Positions 6,341-51,795 of a stretch of DNA of 52,522 bases are shown one piece after another. This DNA is from Bacteroidaceae bacterium. Its GTDB lineage: Bacteria > Bacteroidota > Bacteroidia > Bacteroidales > Bacteroidaceae. The notes beneath the pieces are model-generated. The model saw only the letters and a program-made list of their open reading frames with translations, made no database searches and had not been told where the DNA came from. The stretch covers positions 1 to 52,522 of the forward strand of contig JAFNXL010000019.1 in assembly GCA_017379075.1 (NCBI GenBank), in the 5' to 3' direction. Numbering within the stretch: the first letter of the stretch is position 1; every line of letters begins with the position of its first letter. Made by a program: the position numbers and the translations under genes.

Positions 6341-9300
6341 TTAGTTATTCTTTACAATTACAATCTTTCCTTGGAAATCTTCAAAATCCAGAACTTTATA
6401 ATCGTCCTTGATTTCGTCCACCACATCCAAGCTATCAGCCAAGACCTGCGCACAGATATATTCCTTGAAGTTCTCCAATGCGCCGTCCGTCAGCTCATTA
6501 TGTTCAATGGTTACACAGATACGGTCAGTTATCTCAAAACCGCTTTCCTTGCGCAGGTTCTGGATTCTCTTGACAAACTCGCGGGCAATACCTTCTTGTT
6601 TCAACTCCTGTGTAATCTGGATGTCCAATGCTACCGTAAGGCTTCCTTCATTGGCAACAGTCCATCCGGGAATGTCCTCGCTGAAGATTTCCACGTCTTC
6701 ACGTTCAATGCAAACTTCCTGCCCTTCTGCCAAGCTCACAGTCACGCTTCCTTGTTCCAGTTGAGCGATTTCTTCCTGAGACAAAGCCTCTACAGCCGCG
6801 CTGACGCTCTTCATCAGTTTTCCGAACTTCTTACCCATTGTCCTGAAGTTACACTTGACCTTCTTGACCAGGATTCCCTGTCCGTCCACAAACTCCAGTT
6901 CCTTCACATTCACCTCTTCCAGAATGAGATGCTGCATGGAGACGATGCGTTGCTGTTGGGCTGTATCGGTTGCAGGAATGGCAATGCGCTGCAAGGGCTG
7001 ACGCACAATAATGTCTTCTTTCTTGCGCAAGCTCAGCACCATGCTGGTTACCTGCTGGGCAAGTTGCATGCAAAGTTCCTTTTCCCTGTCAATACAGGTC
7101 TCATCTGCAACGGGGAATTTACTCAGGTGTACGCTCTTGTTGTCACGACCCGTTGCCTCGCACAAATCACGATACAGACGGTCTGCAAAGTAAGGCGCGA
7201 TGGGAGCCATCAGCTTGGCTACTGTTTCCAGGCAGGTATAGAGTGTCTGGTATGCGCTCAACTTGTCTGTGCTCATGGCAGAACCCCAGAAACGTTTTCT
7301 GCTGAGACGTACAAACCAGTTACTTACGTTATCTACTATAAAACTCTGAATCAGGCGGCCGGCGCGTGTGGGCTCATAATCCTCATAACAGCTTTCTACC
7401 TCACGGACAAGGCTGTTCAGACAACTTATGATCCATCGGTCCATTTCCGGACGTTCGCTCATGGGGACATCCTCTTCCTCATAGCACCAATTGTCCACGT
7501 TTGCGTACATTGACAGGAAAGAGTAAGTCTGGAAAAGTTTTCCAAAGAAGCTGCGAGTGACTTCCTTCACTCCTTCAATGTCAAACTTCAGATTATCCCA
7601 GGGCGCACTGTTCGTAATCATATACCATCTGAGTGCGTCAGAACCGTATTCTTCAATGGCGCCGAAAGGATCAACGGCATTTCCAAGACGCTTTGACATC
7701 TTGTTTCCGTTTTTGTCGAGAACCAAACCATTGGATATTACGTTCTTATAAGAAATGCTGTCAAACACCATTGTGGCGATGGCATGGAGCGTAAAGAACC
7801 AACCACGGGTCTGGTCCACACCTTCTGCAATGAAGTCGGCAGGATAGTAAGTGCGGTTGTCAACGATTTCCTTGTTTTCGAACGGATAGTGCAGCTGAGC
7901 GTAAGGCATGGCACCCGAATCGAACCAAACATCAATCAAGTCAAGCTCGCGCTTCATAGGTTTTCCGCTTGCAGACACAAGGGTAATGTCATCCACATAC
8001 GGACGGTGAAGGTCTATCTTATCGTAGTTTTCCTTGTTGTATACTCCCGGTTCAAATCCCATCTCCTTGTACGGATTTGAGGTCATGAAGCCTGCGGCAA
8101 TAGACTTTTCGATTTCGTTGTAGAGTTCTTCAACCGAGCCGATACAGATTTCCTCGCCCTCTTCACTGCGCCAGATAGGAAGCGGGGTTCCCCAGTAACG
8201 TGAGCGGGAAAGGTTCCAGTCGTTCAAGTTCTCAAGCCACTTGCCAAAACGTCCTGTTCCGGTTGATTCCGGTTTCCAGTTGATGGTCTTGTTGAGTTCC
8301 ATCATGCGTTCCTTTGCCGCTGTAGAGCGGATGAACCAAGAGTCAAGCGGATAGTACAACACCGGCTTGTCTGTACGCCAGCAGTGAGGATAGTTGTGTA
8401 CATGCTTTTCTATCTTGAACGCCTTGTTCTCGCCCTTCATATTGACGCAGATGAAAACATCCAATGATTCCGCACTTTGGGCAGCCTTTTCATCGTATTT
8501 GCCGTTTACGGTAAACTGGGGATCGTATGCATTCTTCACCCAACGTCCTTCATAATCCTTATACAGGTCTTTGTTTACGCAAGCGTTCAGGAAGGCTTCG
8601 TCAAGTTCCTCCATCAGATAGAACTTACCCGTGAGGTCCACCATTGGGCGGGTCTCGCCCTTCTTGTTGATCATAAACAGTGAGGGGATGCCTGCAGCCT
8701 TGGCCACAAAGGCGTCATCCGCACCGAATGTGGGAGCAATGTGTACAATACCCGTACCATCCTCTGTGGTCACATAGTCACCCGGAATCACACGGAACGC
8801 CTTGTCCGATGCATCTTCCCAATTACCCTTTTCGTCCACACTCACAGGCTTCACCCATGGCAGGAGCTGTTCGTACTCCATTCCCACAAGGTCAGTACCC
8901 TTGTATTCGCCAACAACCTTGAAGGGAACAAGCTTGTCACCGGGCTTATAATCTTCGAGCGCCAGCTCTGCCGCCTTCGGATTGAAGTGCATATTTATCA
9001 ATGCCTTGGCCAATACCACGGTCATCTTCTCGCCAGAGTAGGCGTTATAGGTCTGCACAGCTACATAATCAATCTTGGGGCCCACACAAAGCGCCACGTT
9101 TGAAGACAGAGTCCAGGGTGTTGTGGTCCAGGCAATGAAGTAGGGAGTTCCCCATTCGGCCATCTCTGGCTTCGGGTTCTTCATCTTGAACTGGCCGATA
9201 ACGGTGGTATCCTTCACGTCACGATAGCAGCCGGGCTGGTTCAACTCATGCGAGCTCAAGCCTGTGCCGGCAGCCGGAGAATAGGGTTGGATGGTATAAC

Positions 9301-9829
9301 CCTTATAAAGCAAGTTCTTGTTATAAAGTTGCTTCAAGAGCCACCAAAGCGTCTCTATGTAACGGTTGTCATAGGTGATGTATGGATCATCAAGGTCCAC
9401 CCAGTAACCCATCTTGTGAGTAAGGTCGGTCCATTCCTTGGTAAATTTCATCACGTCCTTGCGGCAGGCTGCATTATAGTCGGCCACCGAGATGGTCTTT
9501 CCAATGTCCTCCTTGGTGATACCGAGTGTCTTCTCCACTCCGAGTTCTACGGGAAGGCCATGGGTATCCCAGCCGGCCTTGCGTCTTACCAAGAATCCCT
9601 TCATTGTCTTGTAACGGCAGAAGGTGTCCTTGATGGTACGGGCCATTACGTGGTGGATGCCGGGCATGCCGTTGGCAGAAGGCGGACCTTCATAAAAAAC
9701 AAATGAGGGACATCCTTCTCGTTCTGTCACACTTTTGTGAAAAACGTCTTCATCGTCCCATTGCTGCAACACTTCCTTGTTCACTTGTGACAAGTTCAGT
9801 TGGCTACGATTTGCGAATCTCTTACTCAT
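6341..9829 (-). CDS. ileS: Isoleucine--tRNA ligase
   Basis: Class I synthetase charging tRNA-Ile. From the ATG at 9829 it has 1162 aa (MSKRFANRSQLNLSQVNKEV). An in-frame TTG at 9850 would add seven residues, but the ATG looks better. Domains: Rossmann core with the HIGH-type motif in GMPGIHHVMAR (about residue 58), the CP1 editing insertion (about 190-430, with WTTTPWTLSSN), the KMSKR loop at 710-714 (KNGNKMSKRLG), an anticodon-binding helical domain and a C-terminal extension as in the eukaryote-like (type 2) enzymes. There is no zinc-ribbon tail of the E. coli type. A TAATTTTG box lies upstream on the minus strand (9868-9861). It is the first gene of the dksA-lspA-DUF4296 run. Confidence 0.98.
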   Translation of the reverse strand: MSKRFANRSQLNLSQVNKEVLQQWDDEDVFHKSVTEREGCPSFVFYEGPPSANGMPGIHHVMARTIKDTFCRYKTMKGFLVRRKAGWDTHGLPVELGVEKTLGITKEDIGKTISVADYNAACRKDVMKFTKEWTDLTHKMGYWVDLDDPYITYDNRYIETLWWLLKQLYNKNLLYKGYTIQPYSPAAGTGLSSHELNQPGCYRDVKDTTVIGQFKMKNPKPEMAEWGTPYFIAWTTTPWTLSSNVALCVGPKIDYVAVQTYNAYSGEKMTVVLAKALINMHFNPKAAELALEDYKPGDKLVPFKVVGEYKGTDLVGMEYEQLLPWVKPVSVDEKGNWEDASDKAFRVIPGDYVTTEDGTGIVHIAPTFGADDAFVAKAAGIPSLFMINKKGETRPMVDLTGKFYLMEELDEAFLNACVNKDLYKDYEGRWVKNAYDPQFTVNGKYDEKAAQSAESLDVFICVNMKGENKAFKIEKHVHNYPHCWRTDKPVLYYPLDSWFIRSTAAKERMMELNKTINWKPESTGTGRFGKWLENLNDWNLSRSRYWGTPLPIWRSEEGEEICIGSVEELYNEIEKSIAAGFMTSNPYKEMGFEPGVYNKENYDKIDLHRPYVDDITLVSASGKPMKRELDLIDVWFDSGAMPYAQLHYPFENKEIVDNRTYYPADFIAEGVDQTRGWFFTLHAIATMVFDSISYKNVISNGLVLDKNGNKMSKRLGNAVDPFGAIEEYGSDALRWYMITNSAPWDNLKFDIEGVKEVTRSFFGKLFQTYSFLSMYANVDNWCYEEEDVPMSERPEMDRWIISCLNSLVREVESCYEDYEPTRAGRLIQSFIVDNVSNWFVRLSRKRFWGSAMSTDKLSAYQTLYTCLETVAKLMAPIAPYFADRLYRDLCEATGRDNKSVHLSKFPVADETCIDREKELCMQLAQQVTSMVLSLRKKEDIIVRQPLQRIAIPATDTAQQQRIVSMQHLILEEVNVKELEFVDGQGILVKKVKCNFRTMGKKFGKLMKSVSAAVEALSQEEIAQLEQGSVTVSLAEGQEVCIEREDVEIFSEDIPGWTVANEGSLTVALDIQITQELKQEGIAREFVKRIQNLRKESGFEITDRICVTIEHNELTDGALENFKEYICAQVLADSLDVVDEIKDDYKVLDFEDFQGKIVIVKNN

Positions 9830-9950
9830 ATTTGATATATCTTTTTTCAATTTTGATTCGCAAAATTACATATTTTTGTGCAATATACCTAATATAATAT
9901 AGAGTTTTTTCATTTGACGAAAAAATCCCCCATAACTTATTAAATTTGAA

Positions 9951-24426: not shown

Positions 24427-25890
24427 TTAGTCTGCCAGTCTGTAACGCAGGGAACAACCGTCGCCGAAAGCTGCTTCAAGGGCGTCCTTTACCTGTGGCA
24501 GCAGGTTGCGCTCGATGTACTCCATCACATAGTGCGTGGGGACGGTCATCGTCAGACAGTTGTTCACAAAGCTGTAGATACTTGTCTCACTAAACCATTT
24601 GTAGTACTCGTCTTCCGAAATGGTTTCCTCCACCATCTGCGTGAAAAGGTTCCACATGTTCAAGTCCTCCTCTGAGAGCAATGGCTTGCTTGGTTCTTCC
24701 TCCACGATACTTGCCTCTTCCACGTCTTCGGGCATCTCGGCGGCAAGCTGCCGCAGGAAGTTGCGCAAACAGGTTACCACGTATGCCCTCACACCTCTGG
24801 GCTTGAACTTCTCAATTTTTTCCTTCAACTCCTTCACCTCTGTCTGCAAGGCGGGAAGCATGGCATCGGTCATCAGTTCGCGCAGACTCATCAGGTCTGT
24901 GGAGGTCAATCCATATTCTGTCTGCAACACTTGCTCCAAGTCGGCGCGGCTTGCATATCCTTGGCGCTGCTTCTTTCGCGCCTGTCCCATGCCAGAGAGA
25001 TGGATGTTGAAGATGATGCTGTCGGGGTCTCCCTTTGTCTTGCCCACAGGATACTTTGGCGTATAGTCAAAAGAAAAGTCTATCTTGTTCGCCGCAGCCA
25101 GTTCGTTCAGCTCATCACGGATTGGATTAAGCACCATGCTGCAGAAGGTGGCAAACTTCTCGTACTTGTTCTGTACAATTTCCGTCCGCTTGGCGTTGTA
25201 GCGCAAAAGACCCAGGTATTCCTTGAACTCGATATAGTTCACACTCTTGTGCCCTACATGTTTCCATTTGCTCAAATAGATGTATACTCGAGGGCTCTGA
25301 CGTTTGCGGCAGAACGACACGATGTGGCGGACATGCTCGACATAGCCGCGCCTCATGTCAAAGACTCTGCTCACGTTCTCGCTGAGCATGCTTATCTGCA
25401 ACTGACCCGTTCTGCGCTTTCCGCCTGCATAGTTATACTTGATACCTTCTTTGCTGACATCACTGGTCGGAAACTTGATTTTACTGAAAATATTCGCCAT
25501 CACAATACTTTCCTCTCCAGTCTCGTCATCCTTTGTACTGTATACCACGTCAAGTTTTAATAACTTGTAACAGGCTTGTTCCAGTTCATTGTATGAGTTG
25601 GGGCTGACTCCGAGTTCTTTGATGGGTATGGTAAAAGTGACGGATCCACCGCTCATTTCTTCCTGAGAAAAGAGCATGGGCATCACGTTTTCAGTGCGCT
25701 TCCGTTGCTGAAGGTATTCGTTTATCTTGTCTTGCAGCGTATTCACCAGCTCAACCATTACGTTGGTTTGCATGGGTGTGAAGTCTCCCCTGATCTGGCT
25801 ATACACCAAAGGATTCTTCACGAACTCCGAGTCTTTCAGTTCTCGTACAAGTTCGTTTTTGGGATTGAATTCCGCAACCTTCTTTTTCAT
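24427..25890 (-). CDS. Replication initiator protein (Rep_3/RepB-like, plasmid/chromid type)
   Basis: 487 aa from the ATG at 25890 (MKKKVAEFNPKNELVREL); an upstream TTG at 25914 is less likely. The N-terminal half carries two winged-helix-like parts as in initiators of theta plasmids: NPLVYSQIRGDFTPMQTNVM, ELGVSPNSYNELEQACYKLL, then RRGYVEHVRHIVSFCRKRQSPRVYIYLSKWK and the IEFKEYLGLL segment. The C-terminal ~150 residues are coiled-coil then helical (TQMVEETISEDEYYKWFS...). A TACCTTTG box lies at 25919-25912 on its strand, and upstream follow ten 19-bp iterons (26015-26713) and a parA gene. I infer that it binds the iterons and opens the origin. Confidence 0.88.
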   Translation of the reverse strand: MKKKVAEFNPKNELVRELKDSEFVKNPLVYSQIRGDFTPMQTNVMVELVNTLQDKINEYLQQRKRTENVMPMLFSQEEMSGGSVTFTIPIKELGVSPNSYNELEQACYKLLKLDVVYSTKDDETGEESIVMANIFSKIKFPTSDVSKEGIKYNYAGGKRRTGQLQISMLSENVSRVFDMRRGYVEHVRHIVSFCRKRQSPRVYIYLSKWKHVGHKSVNYIEFKEYLGLLRYNAKRTEIVQNKYEKFATFCSMVLNPIRDELNELAAANKIDFSFDYTPKYPVGKTKGDPDSIIFNIHLSGMGQARKKQRQGYASRADLEQVLQTEYGLTSTDLMSLRELMTDAMLPALQTEVKELKEKIEKFKPRGVRAYVVTCLRNFLRQLAAEMPEDVEEASIVEEEPSKPLLSEEDLNMWNLFTQMVEETISEDEYYKWFSETSIYSFVNNCLTMTVPTHYVMEYIERNLLPQVKDALEAAFGDGCSLRYRLAD

Positions 25891-25911
25891 CTTCTTTTGA
25901 TTTCTCAGTGG

Positions 25912-25919
25912 CAAAGGTA
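25912..25919 (-). promoter_or_regulatory. TACCTTTG -7 box of the rep gene
   Basis: TACCTTTG on the minus strand, ending 21 nt before the ATG at 25890. No TTTG at 19-21 nt upstream. The first iteron lies about 95 nt upstream, so Rep could regulate its own promoter. Confidence 0.5.
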
Positions 25920-26014
25920 AAATAATATTCTGATTCTGAGCATATTTTTTAATAACTTTTTTTCTGTGCTTGTTCTCACAAATTCCTATATTTAAATATT
26001 TGCGTACCCAAGTG

Positions 26015-26713
26015 TGTTCGTATTTCCTTTACCAAACAAAGTAAAGTGTTCGGATTTCTTTTACCGGATGTTCATTTTTTATTTACCAGGACTGTTTTTG
26101 GTAAAATGAAATCGAACAGAATCCTTCTTTCGGTAAAAACTTTCCGAACATTATTTTTTTTCATTTTTTTGTGTGGATTTTGGCCAAAAGTGGATATAAA
26201 ACGATGAAATGGACGTTTTTTTGTGTATTTTTAGTCATTTATGGCTTGCTGGAGCTTGCCAATGTTTTACCTGAAAATTATTCCGTCCATATAATGTTCG
26301 GTTTTCTTATACATTATATATAATGTTCATTTTCTTTTGACCAATACTTAGGTGTTTTTTGGCTAAATGCATGATTTTCACATACTTTTTCTTCGGATAT
26401 CGGTTACCTGGTGTTCAGAAAGATTTTACCAGACAGTGTTTATCTCTCTTTGTTTCAATTATTTACGATTCCTTATATTAAAATATTTCATTATTGTTTA
26501 TCTCTAAATTTCAATTTTCAGAATTACTTTTTTGAATAAAACAGATACTAAATACTATTATATAGCCAACAGAACTTACCTAAAATCAGTAAATTACATT
26601 ACTTCTGGTAAAATCTTTTTGAACATCTTGTCAAGAGAAACCGAACTGTACATATTGCCTTTCCCAACATGACATCCAGAAGTAAGTAATAATTGGTATA
26701 GAGAATCCGAACA
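26015..26713. repeat. Ten 19-bp iterons: replication origin candidate
   Basis: Consensus TGTTCGGATTTCTTTTACC. Plus copies: 26015-26033, 26047-26065, 26069-26087, 26295-26313, 26324-26342, 26412-26430. Minus copies: 26100-26118, 26132-26150, 26607-26625, 26695-26713. TGTTC is kept in all ten; ACC closes nine. Five form a tight block (26015-26150, three plus then two minus, facing each other), followed by an AT-rich stretch and five looser copies. The region 25920-27140 is very AT-rich and has no gene. The set is what a Rep-type origin needs: binding sites plus an easily melted stretch. Confidence 0.85.
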
Positions 26714-26812
26714 TATACAGTTCCTACAGCATGTCATTCACCTTCATCCGCAAATGATATCTAAATCTGTGTATATGAAAGCCCCCAAACATATAAGCAT
26801 TCAAATACCAAA

Positions 26813-27094
26813 ATACGCAAATATCTGAATACATAGATGTCCACATTCTTACATATAAAAGCTATTCAAATATTTGCATATATAACTATATGTGTGTCTA
26901 TATTTTCAATATACGTGTTTCTGTATATTTGCATATCGCCGAGTATCTACATATCCCATATTAGAAAACCAACAAGTTACATACCTTATATATATAAATA
27001 TGTGTAAATACCCAGGTCTTCAAAGGTTGAAATATAAAAATACATACAAATATGTGCAAATATTTACATATCTCTTTGTATCTTCAAATATTTG
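26813..27094. repeat. ATATGCAAATAT-type repeats upstream of parA (centromere candidate)
   Basis: Near-identical AT-rich words recur: CGCAAATATCTGAATA (26815), TTCAAATATTTG (26865-26876) followed by CATATA, TATATTTGCATATC (26923-26936), AATATGTGCAAATATTTACA (27048-27067), TTCAAATATTTG (27083-27094). CAAATATTTG is a perfect palindrome. Similar words return after parA (28038-28070) and after the second gene (28598-28640). Sites on both sides of parA and its partner resemble a plasmid partition site; this is inference. Confidence 0.55.
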
Positions 27095-27105
27095 TGCTAT
27101 TTTTG
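27075..27105 (+). promoter_or_regulatory. Canonical Bacteroidota promoter of parA
   Basis: TTTG (27075-27078), 19-nt spacer, TATTTTTG (27098-27105). Both elements and the spacing fit the sigma-ABfr consensus. The ATG of parA follows at 27143. The palindrome CAAATATTTG (27085-27094) sits inside the spacer, so a protein bound there would block the promoter. Confidence 0.75.
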
Positions 27106-27142
27106 CAACAGATTTCATAAAAAAAATCCAATTAATCGCATT

Positions 27143-28030
27143 ATGTCACAAGTTATTGCTGTTTTACACGATAAAGGAGGCTGCGCCAAGACAACGACTG
27201 TGGTAAATCTTGGTTTTGCACTTTGGCTGCTTGGCAAGAAGGTTTTACTTGTCGATACGGATCCACAATGTAACTTAACAGATACTGTGGACAAGACAGT
27301 GCATAAGGAAGCAGACTCAACAATCTATGAATGGTTGCACGATGACGCTGTTCGTGCTAACCTACCCTTGCCCATCTATACCCGTTATGATGGTCTTGAT
27401 TACATACCGGGCAGCCACAGTATGAGTAACATCAATGCAGAGTTGCAGTTGATGTATAGCCGCGAACACAGGTTGTCTGATTTTCTGGACATGATTGACC
27501 CCGACACCAACCTGCCTATTCGCCAGATGTATGATTATATTTTCATCGACTGCGCCCCCGGAGGTGAAACGTTAATGAACACTAACGCTCTTGTTGCAAG
27601 TGATTATGTAATTGTACCCACTGAAGCCGGAATATACAGTCTTCAGGGCCTTCCACGATTGCTCGCATATATAGAGAAAGTCCGCACCCAGTTGCGCTGT
27701 AAGGTGTCCATACTTGGTTATCTGCTCATTCGCTGGAACGCTAACAGGCAGATTTCCAAAGAAGTAAAGGCATATTATAGTAATCCTGAAGAAGTTAGAG
27801 CGCCGCTTTTCCCTGTTCACATCCGCGAATGTGTACGCTGTACTGAATCGGTTGCCCATGAAATGAGTTTGTTTGAATACGCTCCAGACTCAACAGCGGC
27901 GGACGATTATATGCGCATAGCAGAACACATGATAGGCCGTCTAACGCGTCCTAAAACATGGACACCCATGAAGTGGGGACAAATCGCCAACTCTGCCTTC
28001 CGCACTTTCATCCAGGAACGCGGCGAATAG
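27143..28030 (+). CDS. parA: ParA family partition ATPase
   Basis: 295 aa from the ATG at 27143 (MSQVIAVLHDKGGCAKTTT); the longer frame from 27092 overlaps the promoter and is rejected. Deviant Walker A DKGGCAKTTT with the signature Lys, Walker A' LLVDTDPQCNL, Walker B YDYIFIDCAPGG. No N-terminal DNA-binding extension. The length suits small type I ParA/Soj-like proteins. The Ala in place of Gly before the P-loop Lys also occurs in other members of the family. Its neighbour 122 nt downstream is a small protein likely to be the DNA-binding partner. Role: ATP-driven segregation of the replicon whose Rep gene is divergent. Confidence 0.93.
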   Translation: MSQVIAVLHDKGGCAKTTTVVNLGFALWLLGKKVLLVDTDPQCNLTDTVDKTVHKEADSTIYEWLHDDAVRANLPLPIYTRYDGLDYIPGSHSMSNINAELQLMYSREHRLSDFLDMIDPDTNLPIRQMYDYIFIDCAPGGETLMNTNALVASDYVIVPTEAGIYSLQGLPRLLAYIEKVRTQLRCKVSILGYLLIRWNANRQISKEVKAYYSNPEEVRAPLFPVHIRECVRCTESVAHEMSLFEYAPDSTAADDYMRIAEHMIGRLTRPKTWTPMKWGQIANSAFRTFIQERGE

Positions 28031-28152
28031 TTCTATATTCAAATATGCGGATATTCAGATGCGTGAATATAGAAATGTTTAAATACTGGCATTCTTGCAT
28101 ATGTGGAAGTATTTAATAGTTTAATTAGTTGAAAATAAGTAAAATATAAGTT

Positions 28153-28530
28153 ATGGCCATAAAGAAATCAAGAAATATCTTAAACATTGCTAAGGTGGCA
28201 CATGAGGCAGGAGAGTCCTTTGTATCCCCAAAACCATTAGCAACAAACGAGGCGGTTCGCCAGCAAATTGTACAAACAATGCCTCCGGTAAAACCTTTGC
28301 GAAGAGTTTGTACCATCGAGAAAACAGGCGGTTTCAGTTTCTTCACCACAGAGGATGACCGCAACGCACTTGACTATATCGCCTTTAGAAATAAGTTCGA
28401 AAAGCAGAATGTGGTACGTGCCGCTTTGCATGAGTTTATCAAGAAGCACTATCTTGATGCGATTGGACTTGACAGTGAGGGCATTGAAATCCTTTCCGCT
28501 TACGAGTCCCTTATATATAAATATGTATAG
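28153..28530 (+). CDS. Putative ParB-type centromere-binding partner of ParA
   Basis: 125 aa. Basic N-terminus (MAIKKSRNILNIAKVAHEAG), a Pro-rich linker (~35-55), then a region of strand-helix character RRVCTIEKTGGFSFFTTEDD and helices (FRNKFEKQNVVRAALHEFIK) that could be a ribbon-helix-helix-like fold. No classical ParB nuclease domain. Its place after parA and before a clear terminator, with AT-rich repeats on both sides of the pair, suggests the adaptor that ties ParA to DNA. Family not recognised; function inferred from context only. Confidence 0.6.
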   Translation: MAIKKSRNILNIAKVAHEAGESFVSPKPLATNEAVRQQIVQTMPPVKPLRRVCTIEKTGGFSFFTTEDDRNALDYIAFRNKFEKQNVVRAALHEFIKKHYLDAIGLDSEGIEILSAYESLIYKYV

Positions 28531-28555: not shown

Positions 28556-28593
28556 ACCCATTGCAGGAACTTTCTGTGATGGGTTTCTTTTTT
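28556..28593 (+). terminator. Rho-independent terminator of the par operon
   Basis: ACCCAT (28556-28561) pairs with ATGGGT (28579-28584), with further pairing of CAG/CTG inside, followed by TTCTTTTTT. It ends the parA operon 26 nt after the second gene. Confidence 0.75.
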
Positions 28594-28597
28594 ATCA

Positions 28598-28655
28598 CAT
28601 ATGCAAATATGTGAATATGCAAATGTGTGGATGTTTGCATTTCCGTATATATAGA
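28598..28655. repeat. ATATGCAAATATG repeats after the par operon
   Basis: ATATGCAAATATGTG, then ATATGCAAATGTGTG and TTTGCATTTCC in the complement direction. They are the same words as upstream of parA (26813-27094). The gap 28594-28855 contains only these and a TAAATTTG box (28784-28791) before the GH36 gene. Confidence 0.5.
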
Positions 28656-28855
28656 CACTTCAATATCTATGTCTGTGAAAACCTGAGTATGGGTATATGT
28701 TGAAATATCTGTTGCCTCTGCCTATCCAATAAAATCAAATCATATTCTTACTTGTTTTATGTGTCCATCTCCAAAAAAATACATAAATTTGCAAGTGATA
28801 TAATCATTTTTATGCCAATTTAAACACAAGTTATCAAACCATAAACGAATTAGAA

Positions 28856-46128: not shown

Positions 46129-46377
46129 ATGCGTATGACACAGATTCTTGTTACATTAGATGATAACTCCATAGCTCCCAAGATCATGAAAGCTATTGAA
46201 ATGTTGAAAGGTGTGGTAAATATTTCTCTCTATAAAGAATCAAAAGAAGGAACAACAACAGCTCCTTCCCAACAAGTCTATTCCCAACGCATCCAACGTC
46301 TACGAGGTATAGCCAAAGGAATAACTCAACAACAAATTGAAGAAGATGACCGTTTAGCTTATCTCATGAATAAATGA
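46129..46377 (+). CDS. Antitoxin of a PIN-type toxin-antitoxin pair
   Basis: 82 aa from 46129; the third codon is also ATG (46135), which gives MTQILVTLDDNSIAPKIMKA. A short strand-helix start (ILVTLDDNSIAPKIMKAIEML), then a flexible Ser/Thr-rich stretch and a helical C-terminus (RIQRLRGIAKGITQQQIEED) that would wrap the toxin. Its stop overlaps the toxin start (ATGA, 46374-46377), the classic TA layout. I recognise no precise family; assignment is from context. Confidence 0.8.
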   Translation: MRMTQILVTLDDNSIAPKIMKAIEMLKGVVNISLYKESKEGTTTAPSQQVYSQRIQRLRGIAKGITQQQIEEDDRLAYLMNK

Positions 46378-46787
46378 AAAGGATATTTTTGGATACGAAT
46401 GTCATTCTAGACTTCATTTTAGAAAGAGAAGGCGCAGAAGATGCTGCCAGTATTCTTCAACTTGGGGAAAACGGCGATGTTGATTTGGAGGTGTCTTTTT
46501 TGACGATGGCAAATGTAGCATATATTGCTCGTAAAGGACACACTCAGGAACAGCTTTATAGTATTATTGCAGATTTGTCCGCTTTGTTAAAGACACTGCC
46601 AATGGATGAGTTTCAGTTAAAGCAAGCATTGCTTCATCCGGCAACAGACTTTGAAGACATGTTGCAATATCAATGTGCCATGGCGAATCATTGTGACATC
46701 ATTTTAACCAGGAACTGCAAACATTTTGATTTTTCACAAATTCCAGTGTTAACCCCTTCTGATTATTTAGCCCAAATCGGTTATTAG
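46374..46787 (+). CDS. PIN-domain ribonuclease toxin (VapC-like)
   Basis: 137 aa. PIN domain: MKRIFLDTNVILDFILEREG with Asp7, the acidic centre LLKTLPMDEFQLKQALL and DFEDMLQYQCAMAN, then CDIILTRNCKHF and the end VLTPSDYLAQIGY. The three or four acids binding Mg/Mn are present, so the nuclease should be active. It overlaps the antitoxin by 4 nt. Targets in this family are RNAs, often tRNA or mRNA. No other gene follows until the cas9 region. Confidence 0.92.
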   Translation: MKRIFLDTNVILDFILEREGAEDAASILQLGENGDVDLEVSFLTMANVAYIARKGHTQEQLYSIIADLSALLKTLPMDEFQLKQALLHPATDFEDMLQYQCAMANHCDIILTRNCKHFDFSQIPVLTPSDYLAQIGY

Positions 46788-47640: not shown

Positions 47641-50600
47641 ATGAAAAGAATTTTAGGCCTGGATTTGGGTACAAACAGTATAGGTTGGGCGCTTGTTAAT
47701 GAAAAGGAAAACGAGCAGGAAAAGTCTTCCATCATCAAGTTGGGGGTTCGCGTAAATCCGCTTACCGTGGACGAACAACAAAATTTTGAACAAGGAAAAC
47801 CCATAACGACCAATGCACTCAGACGTGAAAAACGTTCCATGCGCCGGAATCTTCAGCGTTACAAACTGCGTAGAGCCGCACTTATAAAGATTTTGAAGGC
47901 CAATGGCTTTATCACGGACGAGACCCCTTTGACCGAAACAAATAAGGTCATATTTGAGACCTACCGGCTTAGGGCAAAGGCTGCTACCGAACAGGTTTCC
48001 CTTGAAGAATTTGCCCGCATACTGCTTATGATAAACAAGAAAAGGGGCTATAAGAGTAACAGAAAAGCGGTATCAGATGCAGACGGGACAGCCATTGACG
48101 GAATGGACACTGCCCGTTATCTTTATGATAATGAACTCACTCCCGGTCAATATGTATTCTCTCTCCTTGAAAAAGGGAAGAAACATACCCCCGATTTCTA
48201 TCGTTCCGACCTCCAAGGTGAGTTTGACAAGATATGGAACTTCCAACGGCAATTTTACCCGGAACAACTGACGGCCGAATTGCGTGAGGAACTATATGAC
48301 AAGAACGAATCACAAACATGGGCAATCATAGCCAAAGCCTTTCAATTGGTTGGAATAAAGTCTTCCAAGAAGGGGTTTGAACAAAAGAAGGAACAATATC
48401 AATGGCGTATTGAGGCGCTGAACGCACGGATTGACCCCGAGAAATTGGCGGTTGTCCTTCAGAAGATAAATGGTCAATGCAAGAACTCAAGCGGTTATCT
48501 TGGACATATAAGTGACCGCAGTAAGGAATTGTATTTCAAGAAACAGACGGTCGGCCAGTTCCTTATGAACCGACTGGACGAAAATCCGAACAATAGTTTG
48601 AAGAACTTGGTCTTTTACCGTCAGGACTATTTGGACGAATTTGAAAGACTATGGGAGACACAGGCTCGTTTCCATCCCCAGTTGGCACCGGAGCTTAAAC
48701 GTGAGATACGGGATGTTGTTATTTTTTATCAGCGTGCGCTAAAGTCCCAGAAAGGTCTTATCAGCCTGTGTGAGTTTGAGAACCATACCATGGAAGTTAT
48801 ACAGGATGACGGCCGTACCAGACAAAAAACCGTTGGAATGCGTGTGATTCCCAAATCTTCTCTTCTGTTCCAGGAGTTCAAGATTTGGCAGATACTGAAC
48901 AATATAAAGGTTACCGGCCTTGTCGTTACGGATGAAAATCAGAGACCGGTTCAAGGCTGTCGTTTTCTTACCCCAGAAGAAAAGGACAAGTTGTATGCCG
49001 AACTTACTTTCAAAGAAAAGTTGTCCAAGTCGGATGTGCTGAAACTCTTGTTCAGAAACCCCAAGGGAGTGGATTTGAATTTCAAGGAGCACATTGAAGG
49101 CAACCATACTATGTGCGCTTTCTTTAAAGCTTTCCAGACCATAATAGACCTGAGCGGACATGGCGAACACGACTTCAAGAAGATGAATGCGCCTGCCATA
49201 ATTGATTTGGTGGAATCTGTGTTTGCAACGATTGGCTTTAACAAGGATATCCTACGGTTCAACCCCCTGTTGCCTGGAAAGCAAATGGAGAAGCAGGCCT
49301 CATACCGCCTGTGGCATCTGCTTTATTCTTTTGCCGGCGACAATTCCAAGTCGGGCCAAGAAAAACTGTTGGACAAGCTGCAGCAGTTATGCTCATGCAA
49401 CCGCGAGTATGCCAAGGTGTTGGCCAGAATCACATTCAAATCGGATTACGGTAGTCTCAGCGCAAAAGCTATACGCAAGATTATGCCCCACCTGATGGAA
49501 GGTCATGAATACAGCGAAGCCTGCGGGTTGGCGGGATACAGACACTCCAAACACTCCTTGACCAAGCAAGAGATACAGGAAAGGGTATTAAAAGACAAGT
49601 TGGAACTTTTACCGCATAACAGCCTTCGCAATCCTGTGGTGGAAAAAATCCTCAACCAGATGATAAATGTGGTCAATATGGTTGTTGATACTTACGGAAA
49701 ACCCGATGAAATCCGTATAGAGCTGGCCCGCGAACTGAAAAAATGCGCAAAAGAACGCGAGGACATGACAAAGGCGATAAACAGCGCCAATCGCGAACAT
49801 GAATCCATCCGTAAGATTCTCCAGACTGAATTCAATCTTTCCAATCCAAGCCGAAACGACATTGTGCGTTACAAACTGTATATGGAGCTGAAAGACAACG
49901 GTTTCAAAACCCTCTATTCCAATACCTATATTCCACAGGAAAGACTGTTCAGCAAAGAGTTTGATATTGAACACATCATACCACAGGCCAGGCTCTTTGA
50001 TGATTCCTTTTCCAACAAGACCCTTGAGGCGCGCTGCATAAACATCGAAAAGAGCGATGCCACAGCCCGGGATTATGTGGAATCAAAATATGGGCAACAG
50101 GGATTGGACGAATACACGAAAAAGGTGGAAAACCTTTTCAAGAGCAAGGTAATCAGTAAAAGCAAACGGGACAAACTGCTTATGTGCGAGGCGGATATTC
50201 CCTCGGGCTTCATTGAACGAGATTTGCGAAACACCCAATATATTGCCAAAAAGGCTTGCGAGATTCTTGAAGAGATAGTAAGAGAGGTTGTGCCCACTAC
50301 GGGCAGTGTGACCGACCGCCTGCGCCAAGACTGGCAACTGGTTGATGTGATGCAGGAACTCAACTGGGAAAAGTATGATGCCTTGGGTATGACATATACC
50401 ATACAAGACAAGAACGGGCGTGTTATCCGTAAGATAAAGGACTGGACCAAACGCAATGACCACCGCCATCATGCCATGGATGCCCTCACCATAGCCTTTA
50501 CAAAACGTTGCTTCATACAGTATTTGAACAACTTGAACGCTCGAAGCGACAAATCGGGCAGCATTTACGCCATTGAAAAGAAAGAACTGGAACGCATTAA

Positions 50601-51795
50601 CGGCCACCTCAGGTTTGTTCCTCCCATTCCCTTAGACGAATTCCGTGCGCAAGCAAAGAAACACCTACAAGACACATTGGTCTCCATAAAAAGCAAGACC
50701 AAGGTGGTTACCCGCAACGTAAACACGAGCAAAGGCAGCAACGGAATCCGGCACAAGAAGGTGCAGCTAACCCCAAGGGGCCAGTTGCACAACGAGACCA
50801 TTTACGGAAAGATAAGCCGATACGCCACCCGAGAGGAAAAGGTGGGTTCTTCCTTTACCGCAGAAAAGATAGCCACAGTGGCCAATATGCGTTACCGAAT
50901 GGCATTGTTGGAGCGTCTGCAGCAATTCAATGGTGACCCCCAAAAGGCATTTACGGGCAGCAATAGTCTGGAGAAGAAACCCATCTTCCTGAACGCGTCA
51001 CATACCCTCGCTGTGCCGGGCAGGGTAAAGACCGTAACTTTTGAAGAGGTGTTTACCATCCGCAAGGAAATCTCCCCCAAACTCAAAATAGACAAGGTAA
51101 TTGATGTGCATGTCCGTCAGATCCTGCAGAAACGCTTGGATGAATATGGTGGAAATGCCACGAAAGCCTTTTCCAATCTGGATGAAAACCCCATTTGGCT
51201 GAACAAGGAAAAGGGAATCAGCATAAAGCGGGTTACCATTACCGGTATTGGCAACGGCGTGGCATTGCATGACAAGCATGACCATCTGGGCCGCACAATT
51301 GTGGACGAAAACGGACAAAAACAACCCTCCGACTATGTCAGCACCAGCAACAACCATCATGTGGCCATATTCTTGGACGAGAAGGGTACATTGCAGGAGC
51401 ACATCGTCAGTTTTTATGAGGCCACAGAACGTGTCCGACAGGGACTTCCCGTCATTGACAAGCAGTATCGGAAATCCGAGGGGTGGCAGTATCTCTTCAG
51501 CATGAAGCAGAATGAATATGTGGTCTTCCCCAATACAGAAACCGGTTTTAATCCAAACGAGGTGGATTTGCTGAATCCGGATAATTACCATCTTATTAGC
51601 CCTAATTTGTTTAGGGTTCAGAAGCTGTCCTCCAAAATCTATGTATTCCGCCACCATCTGGAAACAACAGTGGAAGAGAATAATGAACTGAAGGGAACAA
51701 CGTGGAAGCGATTACAATCTCTACCACCTCTGATGGGCATTGTCAAGGTGCGAGTCAATCATATAGGACATATAGTAGCGGTGGGCGAACCATAA
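47641..51795 (+). CDS. cas9: CRISPR-associated endonuclease Cas9 (type II-C)
   Basis: 1384 aa, RNA-guided DNA nuclease. RuvC-I MKRILGLDLGTNSIGWALV with Asp8; Arg-rich bridge helix RREKRSMRRNLQRYKLRRAA (~61-80); REC lobe; RuvC-II IRIELARELK with Glu694; HNH EFDIEHIIPQARLFDDSFSN with His778 and the Asn801 region; RuvC-III NDHRHHAMDALTIAF with His944 and Asp947; C-terminal PAM-interacting part. All catalytic residues are present, so both strands should be cut. The length fits Bacteroidota Cas9. A tracrRNA lies divergently upstream and one repeat downstream; no cas1, cas2, csn2 or cas4 is seen in 700 bp downstream or anywhere in the window. Confidence 0.98.
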   Translation: MKRILGLDLGTNSIGWALVNEKENEQEKSSIIKLGVRVNPLTVDEQQNFEQGKPITTNALRREKRSMRRNLQRYKLRRAALIKILKANGFITDETPLTETNKVIFETYRLRAKAATEQVSLEEFARILLMINKKRGYKSNRKAVSDADGTAIDGMDTARYLYDNELTPGQYVFSLLEKGKKHTPDFYRSDLQGEFDKIWNFQRQFYPEQLTAELREELYDKNESQTWAIIAKAFQLVGIKSSKKGFEQKKEQYQWRIEALNARIDPEKLAVVLQKINGQCKNSSGYLGHISDRSKELYFKKQTVGQFLMNRLDENPNNSLKNLVFYRQDYLDEFERLWETQARFHPQLAPELKREIRDVVIFYQRALKSQKGLISLCEFENHTMEVIQDDGRTRQKTVGMRVIPKSSLLFQEFKIWQILNNIKVTGLVVTDENQRPVQGCRFLTPEEKDKLYAELTFKEKLSKSDVLKLLFRNPKGVDLNFKEHIEGNHTMCAFFKAFQTIIDLSGHGEHDFKKMNAPAIIDLVESVFATIGFNKDILRFNPLLPGKQMEKQASYRLWHLLYSFAGDNSKSGQEKLLDKLQQLCSCNREYAKVLARITFKSDYGSLSAKAIRKIMPHLMEGHEYSEACGLAGYRHSKHSLTKQEIQERVLKDKLELLPHNSLRNPVVEKILNQMINVVNMVVDTYGKPDEIRIELARELKKCAKEREDMTKAINSANREHESIRKILQTEFNLSNPSRNDIVRYKLYMELKDNGFKTLYSNTYIPQERLFSKEFDIEHIIPQARLFDDSFSNKTLEARCINIEKSDATARDYVESKYGQQGLDEYTKKVENLFKSKVISKSKRDKLLMCEADIPSGFIERDLRNTQYIAKKACEILEEIVREVVPTTGSVTDRLRQDWQLVDVMQELNWEKYDALGMTYTIQDKNGRVIRKIKDWTKRNDHRHHAMDALTIAFTKRCFIQYLNNLNARSDKSGSIYAIEKKELERINGHLRFVPPIPLDEFRAQAKKHLQDTLVSIKSKTKVVTRNVNTSKGSNGIRHKKVQLTPRGQLHNETIYGKISRYATREEKVGSSFTAEKIATVANMRYRMALLERLQQFNGDPQKAFTGSNSLEKKPIFLNASHTLAVPGRVKTVTFEEVFTIRKEISPKLKIDKVIDVHVRQILQKRLDEYGGNATKAFSNLDENPIWLNKEKGISIKRVTITGIGNGVALHDKHDHLGRTIVDENGQKQPSDYVSTSNNHHVAIFLDEKGTLQEHIVSFYEATERVRQGLPVIDKQYRKSEGWQYLFSMKQNEYVVFPNTETGFNPNEVDLLNPDNYHLISPNLFRVQKLSSKIYVFRHHLETTVEENNELKGTTWKRLQSLPPLMGIVKVRVNHIGHIVAVGEP

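Follow-up and report, generated by a model that had tools for sequence, protein, structure and literature searches.

The closest well-described counterparts of the locus reported here are iteron plasmid origins, such as those of F (RepE), R6K (pi), RK2 (TrfA) and P1 (RepA), which share with it an initiator with two winged-helix domains (WH1-WH2), par genes nearby, and phased iterons of 19-22 bp adjoining an AT-rich region. Their usual layout, in which the iterons are chiefly direct repeats to one side of the AT-rich region and DnaA boxes occur at the origin, is not what we found. For the second chromosome of Prevotella intermedia, the published description reports that no skew transition, iterons or maintenance genes were found and calls the origin unknown (PMC4755523), which is what gives the present locus its use. 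We analyzed the whole of contig JAFNXL010000019.1 (C16; 52,522 bp, hereafter the window), which belongs to a 3.0-Mb metagenome-assembled genome (MAG; G000, GCA_017379075.1) of 106 contigs and 92.3% completeness; its nearest named relatives, also MAGs, carry the label Bacteroidaceae or Prevotellaceae, and 2 of the 3 come from the caecum of water buffalo and the rectum of water deer. The window contains divergent rep (minus strand) and parA (plus strand) genes, and the 1252-bp gap between them (25891-27142) holds ten 19-bp sites that, together with rep, very probably form a replication origin. We consider it likely that this is the bidirectional origin of a second chromosome, or chromid, in an uncultured genus of the Bacteroidaceae/Prevotellaceae, at which Rep would act on facing arrays, a spacer would open and helicase would be recruited. 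The features of rep and the adjoining part of the gap are:

24427 to 25890, minus strand: rep, initiator of 487 amino acids (residues 21-301, Rep_3-type WH1-WH2; residues 405-486, DnaA domain I)
26015 to 26150: control-type block of five 19-mers (26015+, 26047+, 26069+, 26100-, 26132-; spacings 32, 22, 31 and 32)
26295 to 26313, plus strand: weaker 19-mer, ending in TACA
26324 to 26342, plus strand: core iteron, outer left (mirror of 26695-)
26390 to 26408, plus strand: degenerate core site (mirror of 26629-; 22 bp from 26412)
26412 to 26430, plus strand: core iteron, inner left (mirror of 26607-)
26431 to 26606, unstranded: AT-rich spacer, 22% GC, candidate DNA unwinding element
26607 to 26625, minus strand: core iteron, inner right
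26629 to 26647, minus strand: degenerate core site
26695 to 26713, minus strand: core iteron, outer right

The sites are real, non-random and conserved. All ten sites described in an earlier note on this DNA were recovered (plus strand at 26015, 26047, 26069, 26295, 26324 and 26412; minus strand at 26100, 26132, 26607 and 26695), aligning as 19-mers of the form TGTTC-N10-(T/G)AC(C/A) with TGTTC invariant in 10/10. Their confinement to the gap was likewise borne out, as all eight occurrences of TGTTC-N10-TACC in the window fall between rep and parA; base composition does not explain them, since in 2000 first-order shuffled versions of the gap the same pattern averaged 0.011 copies and never exceeded 1. 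A position weight matrix trained on seven of the sites returned the ten sites as the ten best matches in the 52.5-kb window, a result that is partly circular. The note had also asked whether the motif is equally frequent elsewhere in the genome, and here the answer is divided: the bare pattern TGTTC-N9-TTACC is not rare (16 copies genome-wide, versus 13 for a reversed control pattern), but it is clustered only in the rep-parA gap, which holds seven of the 16, the other nine being single copies on nine contigs. Generic 17-mer families, with as many as 5 mismatches allowed, were no more numerous in the window gap (10) than in the richest of its shuffles (also 10), and showed no excess at loci L015 and L016 either. 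We therefore used gapped dyads and a per-locus 19-mer expectation maximization (EM). GGTA-N10-GAAC, counted as a gapped dyad, has 8 copies in the window gap, against a maximum of 4 in 60 shuffles.

Conservation follows the sites rather than the DNA between them. At L013, whose Rep is 93% identical to that of the window, the ends of the ten sites are identical at 95/100 positions, their middles at 57/90 and the inter-site DNA at 278/531; at L012 (Rep 85% identical), the corresponding values are 79/100, 54/90 and 231/531. The position of the sites relative to rep is almost fixed among close relatives, and both L011 and L013 retain the site positions of the control-type block. The L012 counterpart of 26047 is inverted in place and that of 26100 is unrecognizable; the inversion suggests that orientation counts little in this rep-proximal block.

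The earlier note had stressed the first five sites, a 3+2 head-to-head block. This block is present, but the emphasis was misplaced: the conserved core is a mirror-symmetric set around 26518. The pairs 26324+/26695- and 26412+/26607- share the exact common centre 26518.5, and the degenerate pair 26390+/26629-, which is not among the ten reported sites, is a third pair with the same centre. This centre sits within the AT-richest stretch of the gap; indeed, the lowest-GC 80-bp window of the gap starts at 26473 (15% GC), inside the spacer, which also contains TGTTTATCTCT twice (26437 and 26495).

At 39 of 47 distinct Rep loci of the genus, iteron arrays face each other over an AT-rich spacer at a distance of 170-210 bp, and this layout persists with Reps of no more than 34-38% identity. 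Arrays were called from the per-locus EM with a rule that demands inner plus and minus sites 175-205 bp apart and further sites on each side; the rule was fixed after the first loci had been inspected, and several loci are closely related. With the first motif seed, 24 of the 30 genus loci with full-length Rep (L014-L043) and 0 of the other 19 loci passed. Three of the six misses had too little upstream DNA, and all three show arrays once extended (192, 194 and 194 bp). Among 17 further genus loci, L176 and L178 were positive with the same seed, and ten more with a second seed of different iteron sequence and the wider limit of 170-210 bp. Two calls need qualification: the first-seed match of L184 rested on the wrong motif, with 0 mirrored sites, and this locus is counted solely for its second-seed array, while the 175 bp scored for L031 is due to a weak extra site, the next site giving 194. 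No shuffle met the rule (0/350 and 0/150, or 0/500 in total), and neither did any of 16 loci from other genera with either seed. Same-strand neighboring sites are most commonly exactly 22 bp apart (90 pairs), and the spacers have a GC content of 0.16-0.32, excluding the spurious L184 call. Short conserved elements also occur within the spacers, for example GATAAAC in 11 of 21, versus 0.5 expected. A second, mostly shorter Rep type (L183-L188, L179, L181, L182, L191) has its own facing arrays with another iteron sequence, and G050 and G020, among others, carry both types. L018 (G044:C71) and L019 (G014:C40) encode Reps 41% identical to the window Rep, with no array found upstream.

Rep itself combines a double winged helix of the Rep_3 type, resembling pi and RepE, with DnaA domain I. 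Both its WH1 and WH2 sequence domains and its pi/RepE-like fold place it in Rep_3: among 36 aligned relatives, 26 gave a match to Rep3_N and 28 one to Rep3_C (E 0.01), and of these two domains the window Rep matches only Rep3_C, at E 0.0015 and below the curated cut-off. DnaA_N was found in 29 of the 36. The similarity to DnaA is limited to this N-terminal domain and does not include the AAA+ domain III or the DNA-binding domain IV; a separate, complete DnaA is encoded on contig C55. Rep-type matches (E 1.4e-17 or better, reaching outside the DnaA-like domain) occur in 47 of 139 genomes of the genus.

GC skew, a check that the note had proposed, agrees with an origin at this place. In the window (+4.5 kb) and in 7 of 8 other genus contigs, which were selected by length, the locus is no more than 5 kb from the cumulative minimum (G120 +1.1, G044 -1.8, G054 -0.7, G050 -0.1, G023 -1.5, G031 +2.7 and G049 -1.1 kb; G035 is the exception). 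Such agreement in 8/9 contigs has a probability of 9e-8 under uniform placement, and only 1 of 22 other divergent gaps of at least 300 bp had a skew minimum nearby. For the shorter Rep paralogues, the minimum is at the locus in 2 of 3 contigs.

Several observations weigh against a bidirectional chromid origin. G035 has facing arrays and no skew minimum there, while G044 has the minimum at rep and no array was found. Only for the window, G050 and G049 is the best two-slope split of the skew less than 1 kb from the locus; in the remaining contigs, the distance is about 5 to 60 kb. In the window, genes show a clear strand bias away from the locus, but not every other contig does, the values being, for example, 20% on its left side in G031 and 17% on its right side in G049. 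In the stretches examined of two Prevotella-type contigs, G226 and G464 (of which G464 includes 40 kb of N), no minimum was seen at Rep, nor was one seen in two contigs of another genus, and the cumulative skew of the 317-kb Segatella hominis plasmid falls overall, with no clear minimum at its rep gap. Arrays were not detected at 8/47 loci (L018, L019, L035 at a contig end, L175, L177, L180, L189 and L190), and the second motif seed was derived from the loci themselves. Finally, fragmented MAG contigs cannot demonstrate that the replicon is separate.

Taken together, the Rep_3-type neighbor, the conserved phased sites beside an AT-rich core and the GC-skew minimum back the note's proposal of a Rep-driven iteron origin, and multiple phased initiator sites beside an AT-rich region are a mark of such origins. 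The note made no mention of the par repeats, of DnaA domain I in Rep or of the essential genes. From the sequence, Rep presumably binds the 19-mers, in two facing arrays flanking the spacer 26431-26606. The bound arrays would open this spacer, and the C-terminal DnaA domain I of Rep may recruit the replicative helicase, one per side, such that two forks would depart in opposite directions without a DnaA-box array. The block at 26015-26150 might serve autoregulation or copy control, while the parA operon and its AT-rich repeats would partition the replicon.

As to which replicon is served, a secondary, chromid-like one fits best, its separateness from the dnaA chromosome being our inference. 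The cargo includes an essential gene:

6341 to 9850, minus strand: ileS (TIGR00392 equivalog)

This is the only full-length ileS found, and the only match over the cut-off, in the 92% complete genome G000, and C16 additionally encodes lspA and a dksA-like gene. In other drafts (G120, G049 and G023), ileS is on a contig other than that of rep; in G023, gpmI, rpoN, ispG and rseP lie beside rep, and the G120 Rep contig carries RNase Y and a type IX secretion system plug gene. C16 also resembles the dnaA contig in composition, with a tetranucleotide distance of 0.076 versus 0.089 between the two halves of C16 (one comparison) and a GC content of 46.3 versus 48.5%. A plasmid-type rep and par are combined with chromosome-like composition, two marks of a chromid, and the replicon is probably a large and essential secondary chromosome of uncultured gut bacteria. 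This cargo and composition speak against the leading alternative, that the same origin sits on an ordinary large plasmid, with a standard Rep_3 protein aided by host DnaA and a DnaA-like domain that only stabilizes oligomers. Rep relatives do occur on plasmid records of Bacteroides, Segatella and Prevotella (20-26% identity among the matches listed), and the 317-kb S. hominis plasmid has the same divergent rep/parA layout; however, none of 39 plasmid records has a single match covering 80% of Rep, and DnaA boxes are not enriched. We regard an ordinary plasmid as possible, though rather doubtful.

The DnaA-box counts were made in 27 upstream regions: the exact box TTATCCACA was absent (0 copies), and boxes with one mismatch numbered 14, versus a shuffle mean of 11.4 (range 5-17). 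TTATNCACA is absent from contig C16. A separate attempt to place the main oriC by DnaA-box clusters gave matches in 6 of 13 genomes (G000 and 12 others), about the rate of the reversed control, and located no oriC. That the locus is instead the origin of the main or only chromosome, replacing DnaA-oriC, would agree with this lack of a DnaA-box cluster above control, with a dnaA gene that is itself not at a skew minimum, with the housekeeping genes nearby, and with skew arms of tens of kb in several contigs (more than 100 kb on one side in G120). We nevertheless find it unlikely. An ordinary DnaA is encoded elsewhere; the near-complete genomes G099 and G088 have Rep matches in the DnaA domain only, and G103 and G105, also near-complete, have none at all. 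Some genomes have a Rep locus on each of two contigs, and in G050 both of these loci are at skew minima. According to PMC4755523, oriC in Bacteroidetes is commonly far from dnaA anyway.

It is very improbable that the sites are operators regulating rep and parA, with replication starting elsewhere: they do lie between divergent genes, and the block 26015-26150 is only 125-260 bp from the rep start, but the symmetry, the 22-bp phasing, the fixed distances around a spacer up to about 1.4-2.1 kb from rep, and the skew minimum would then be unexpected. An assembly or binning artefact joining a plasmid locus to chromosomal genes is conceivable for a MAG with 4.55% contamination, and has a negligible chance of being true because the independent MAG contig G054:C77 carries rep, parA and ileS together in its first 60 kb, with products and neighbors 91-97% identical to those of the window.

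The chromid-like replicon also carries a putative partition module next to the proposed origin:

26780 to 27100, unstranded: AT-rich repeats AAATATNTG / ATATNTGNATAT upstream of parA, candidate partition site
27143 to 28030, plus strand: parA-type ATPase, divergent from rep (Pfam AAA_31, E 5.7e-41)
28153 to 28530, plus strand: small open reading frame (ORF) of 125 amino acids downstream of parA, ParB-like by position only

Among the eight related genus contigs with a tblastn match to ParA, seven encode a ParA 75-97% identical to that of the window and the eighth, G044, one that is 33% identical. The small ORF is 64-88% identical in seven related genus contigs, belongs to no Pfam or NCBIfam family, and has no tblastn match in plasmids. 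In 5 of the 7 contigs with a conserved par module, Rep is only 34-37% identical, and this contrast between a conserved par module and a fast-changing Rep is open to testing. The window has 10 copies of AAATATNTG and 5 of ATATNTGNATAT around parA, counts that were each reached by 0/100 shuffles, and the repeat type recurs at 28035-28130 and about 28590-28720; AAATATNTG is also in excess in 7/7 other loci, where its count is attained by between 0 and 2 of 100 shuffles. Plain k-mer counts of these repeats were weak or not significant, and their periodicity was not significant (3.96, versus a 95% shuffle level of 4.50). Our guess is that the repeats may be the partition site, or centromere. Directly before parA, 27075-27105 on the plus strand matches the Bacteroidetes promoter consensus. 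Further away, the window encodes Cas9 of a type II CRISPR system (47641-51795, plus strand; TIGR01865, E 4e-156), accompanied by a PIN-domain ORF (46374-46787).

In comparison with known systems, the locus differs from iteron plasmid origins in that its arrays face each other from both sides of the AT-rich region, there is no enrichment of DnaA boxes, and DnaA domain I is part of Rep. The iterons of the Vibrio RctB/ori2 system differ from those found here, and RctB is not known to have a DnaA domain I, nor ori2 to have facing arrays. The second chromosomes of P. intermedia and Prevotella nigrescens are alike in family order, a Rep_3-type protein, large size and essential genes (PMC4755523; NZ_CP082843.1); their Rep is about 25% identical to the window Rep over residues 12-381, a match that ends before the DnaA-like domain, and neither iterons nor plasmid maintenance genes have been reported in its vicinity. 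Relatives of P. intermedia now offer a concrete origin with coordinates. The phage lambda origin also has 19-bp iterons bound by the O protein, an AT-rich region and a separate helicase-recruitment step, as given in PMC5043065; there, unlike here, dimers of O bind iterons that are each an inverted repeat, and the helicase is delivered by lambda P. In Escherichia coli, what makes the N-terminal domain of DnaA essential has been tied to helicase loading (PMC5448010). Our literature search, which covered few subscription journals and drew on partial texts, returned no report of facing iteron arrays or of a Rep-DnaA domain I fusion. We see the origin as a variant of iteron origins, new in its facing second array and its Rep-borne DnaA domain I. 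More tentatively, it could be a symmetric, self-sufficient origin, in which an iteron initiator fused to the helicase-recruiting domain of DnaA would provide one helicase per fork, without DnaA boxes, on an essential chromosome. If this mechanism is true, a plasmid initiator would have been freed from DnaA boxes by taking up domain I of DnaA and duplicating its iteron array, which would be a route from a plasmid to a bidirectionally replicating chromosome. In archaeal origins flanked by origin recognition boxes, initiator sites face each other around an AT-rich unwinding element, and the initiators, Orc1/Cdc6, are unrelated. A symmetric, self-sufficient origin of the kind proposed here would be a bacterial parallel to these initiator-flanked archaeal origins.
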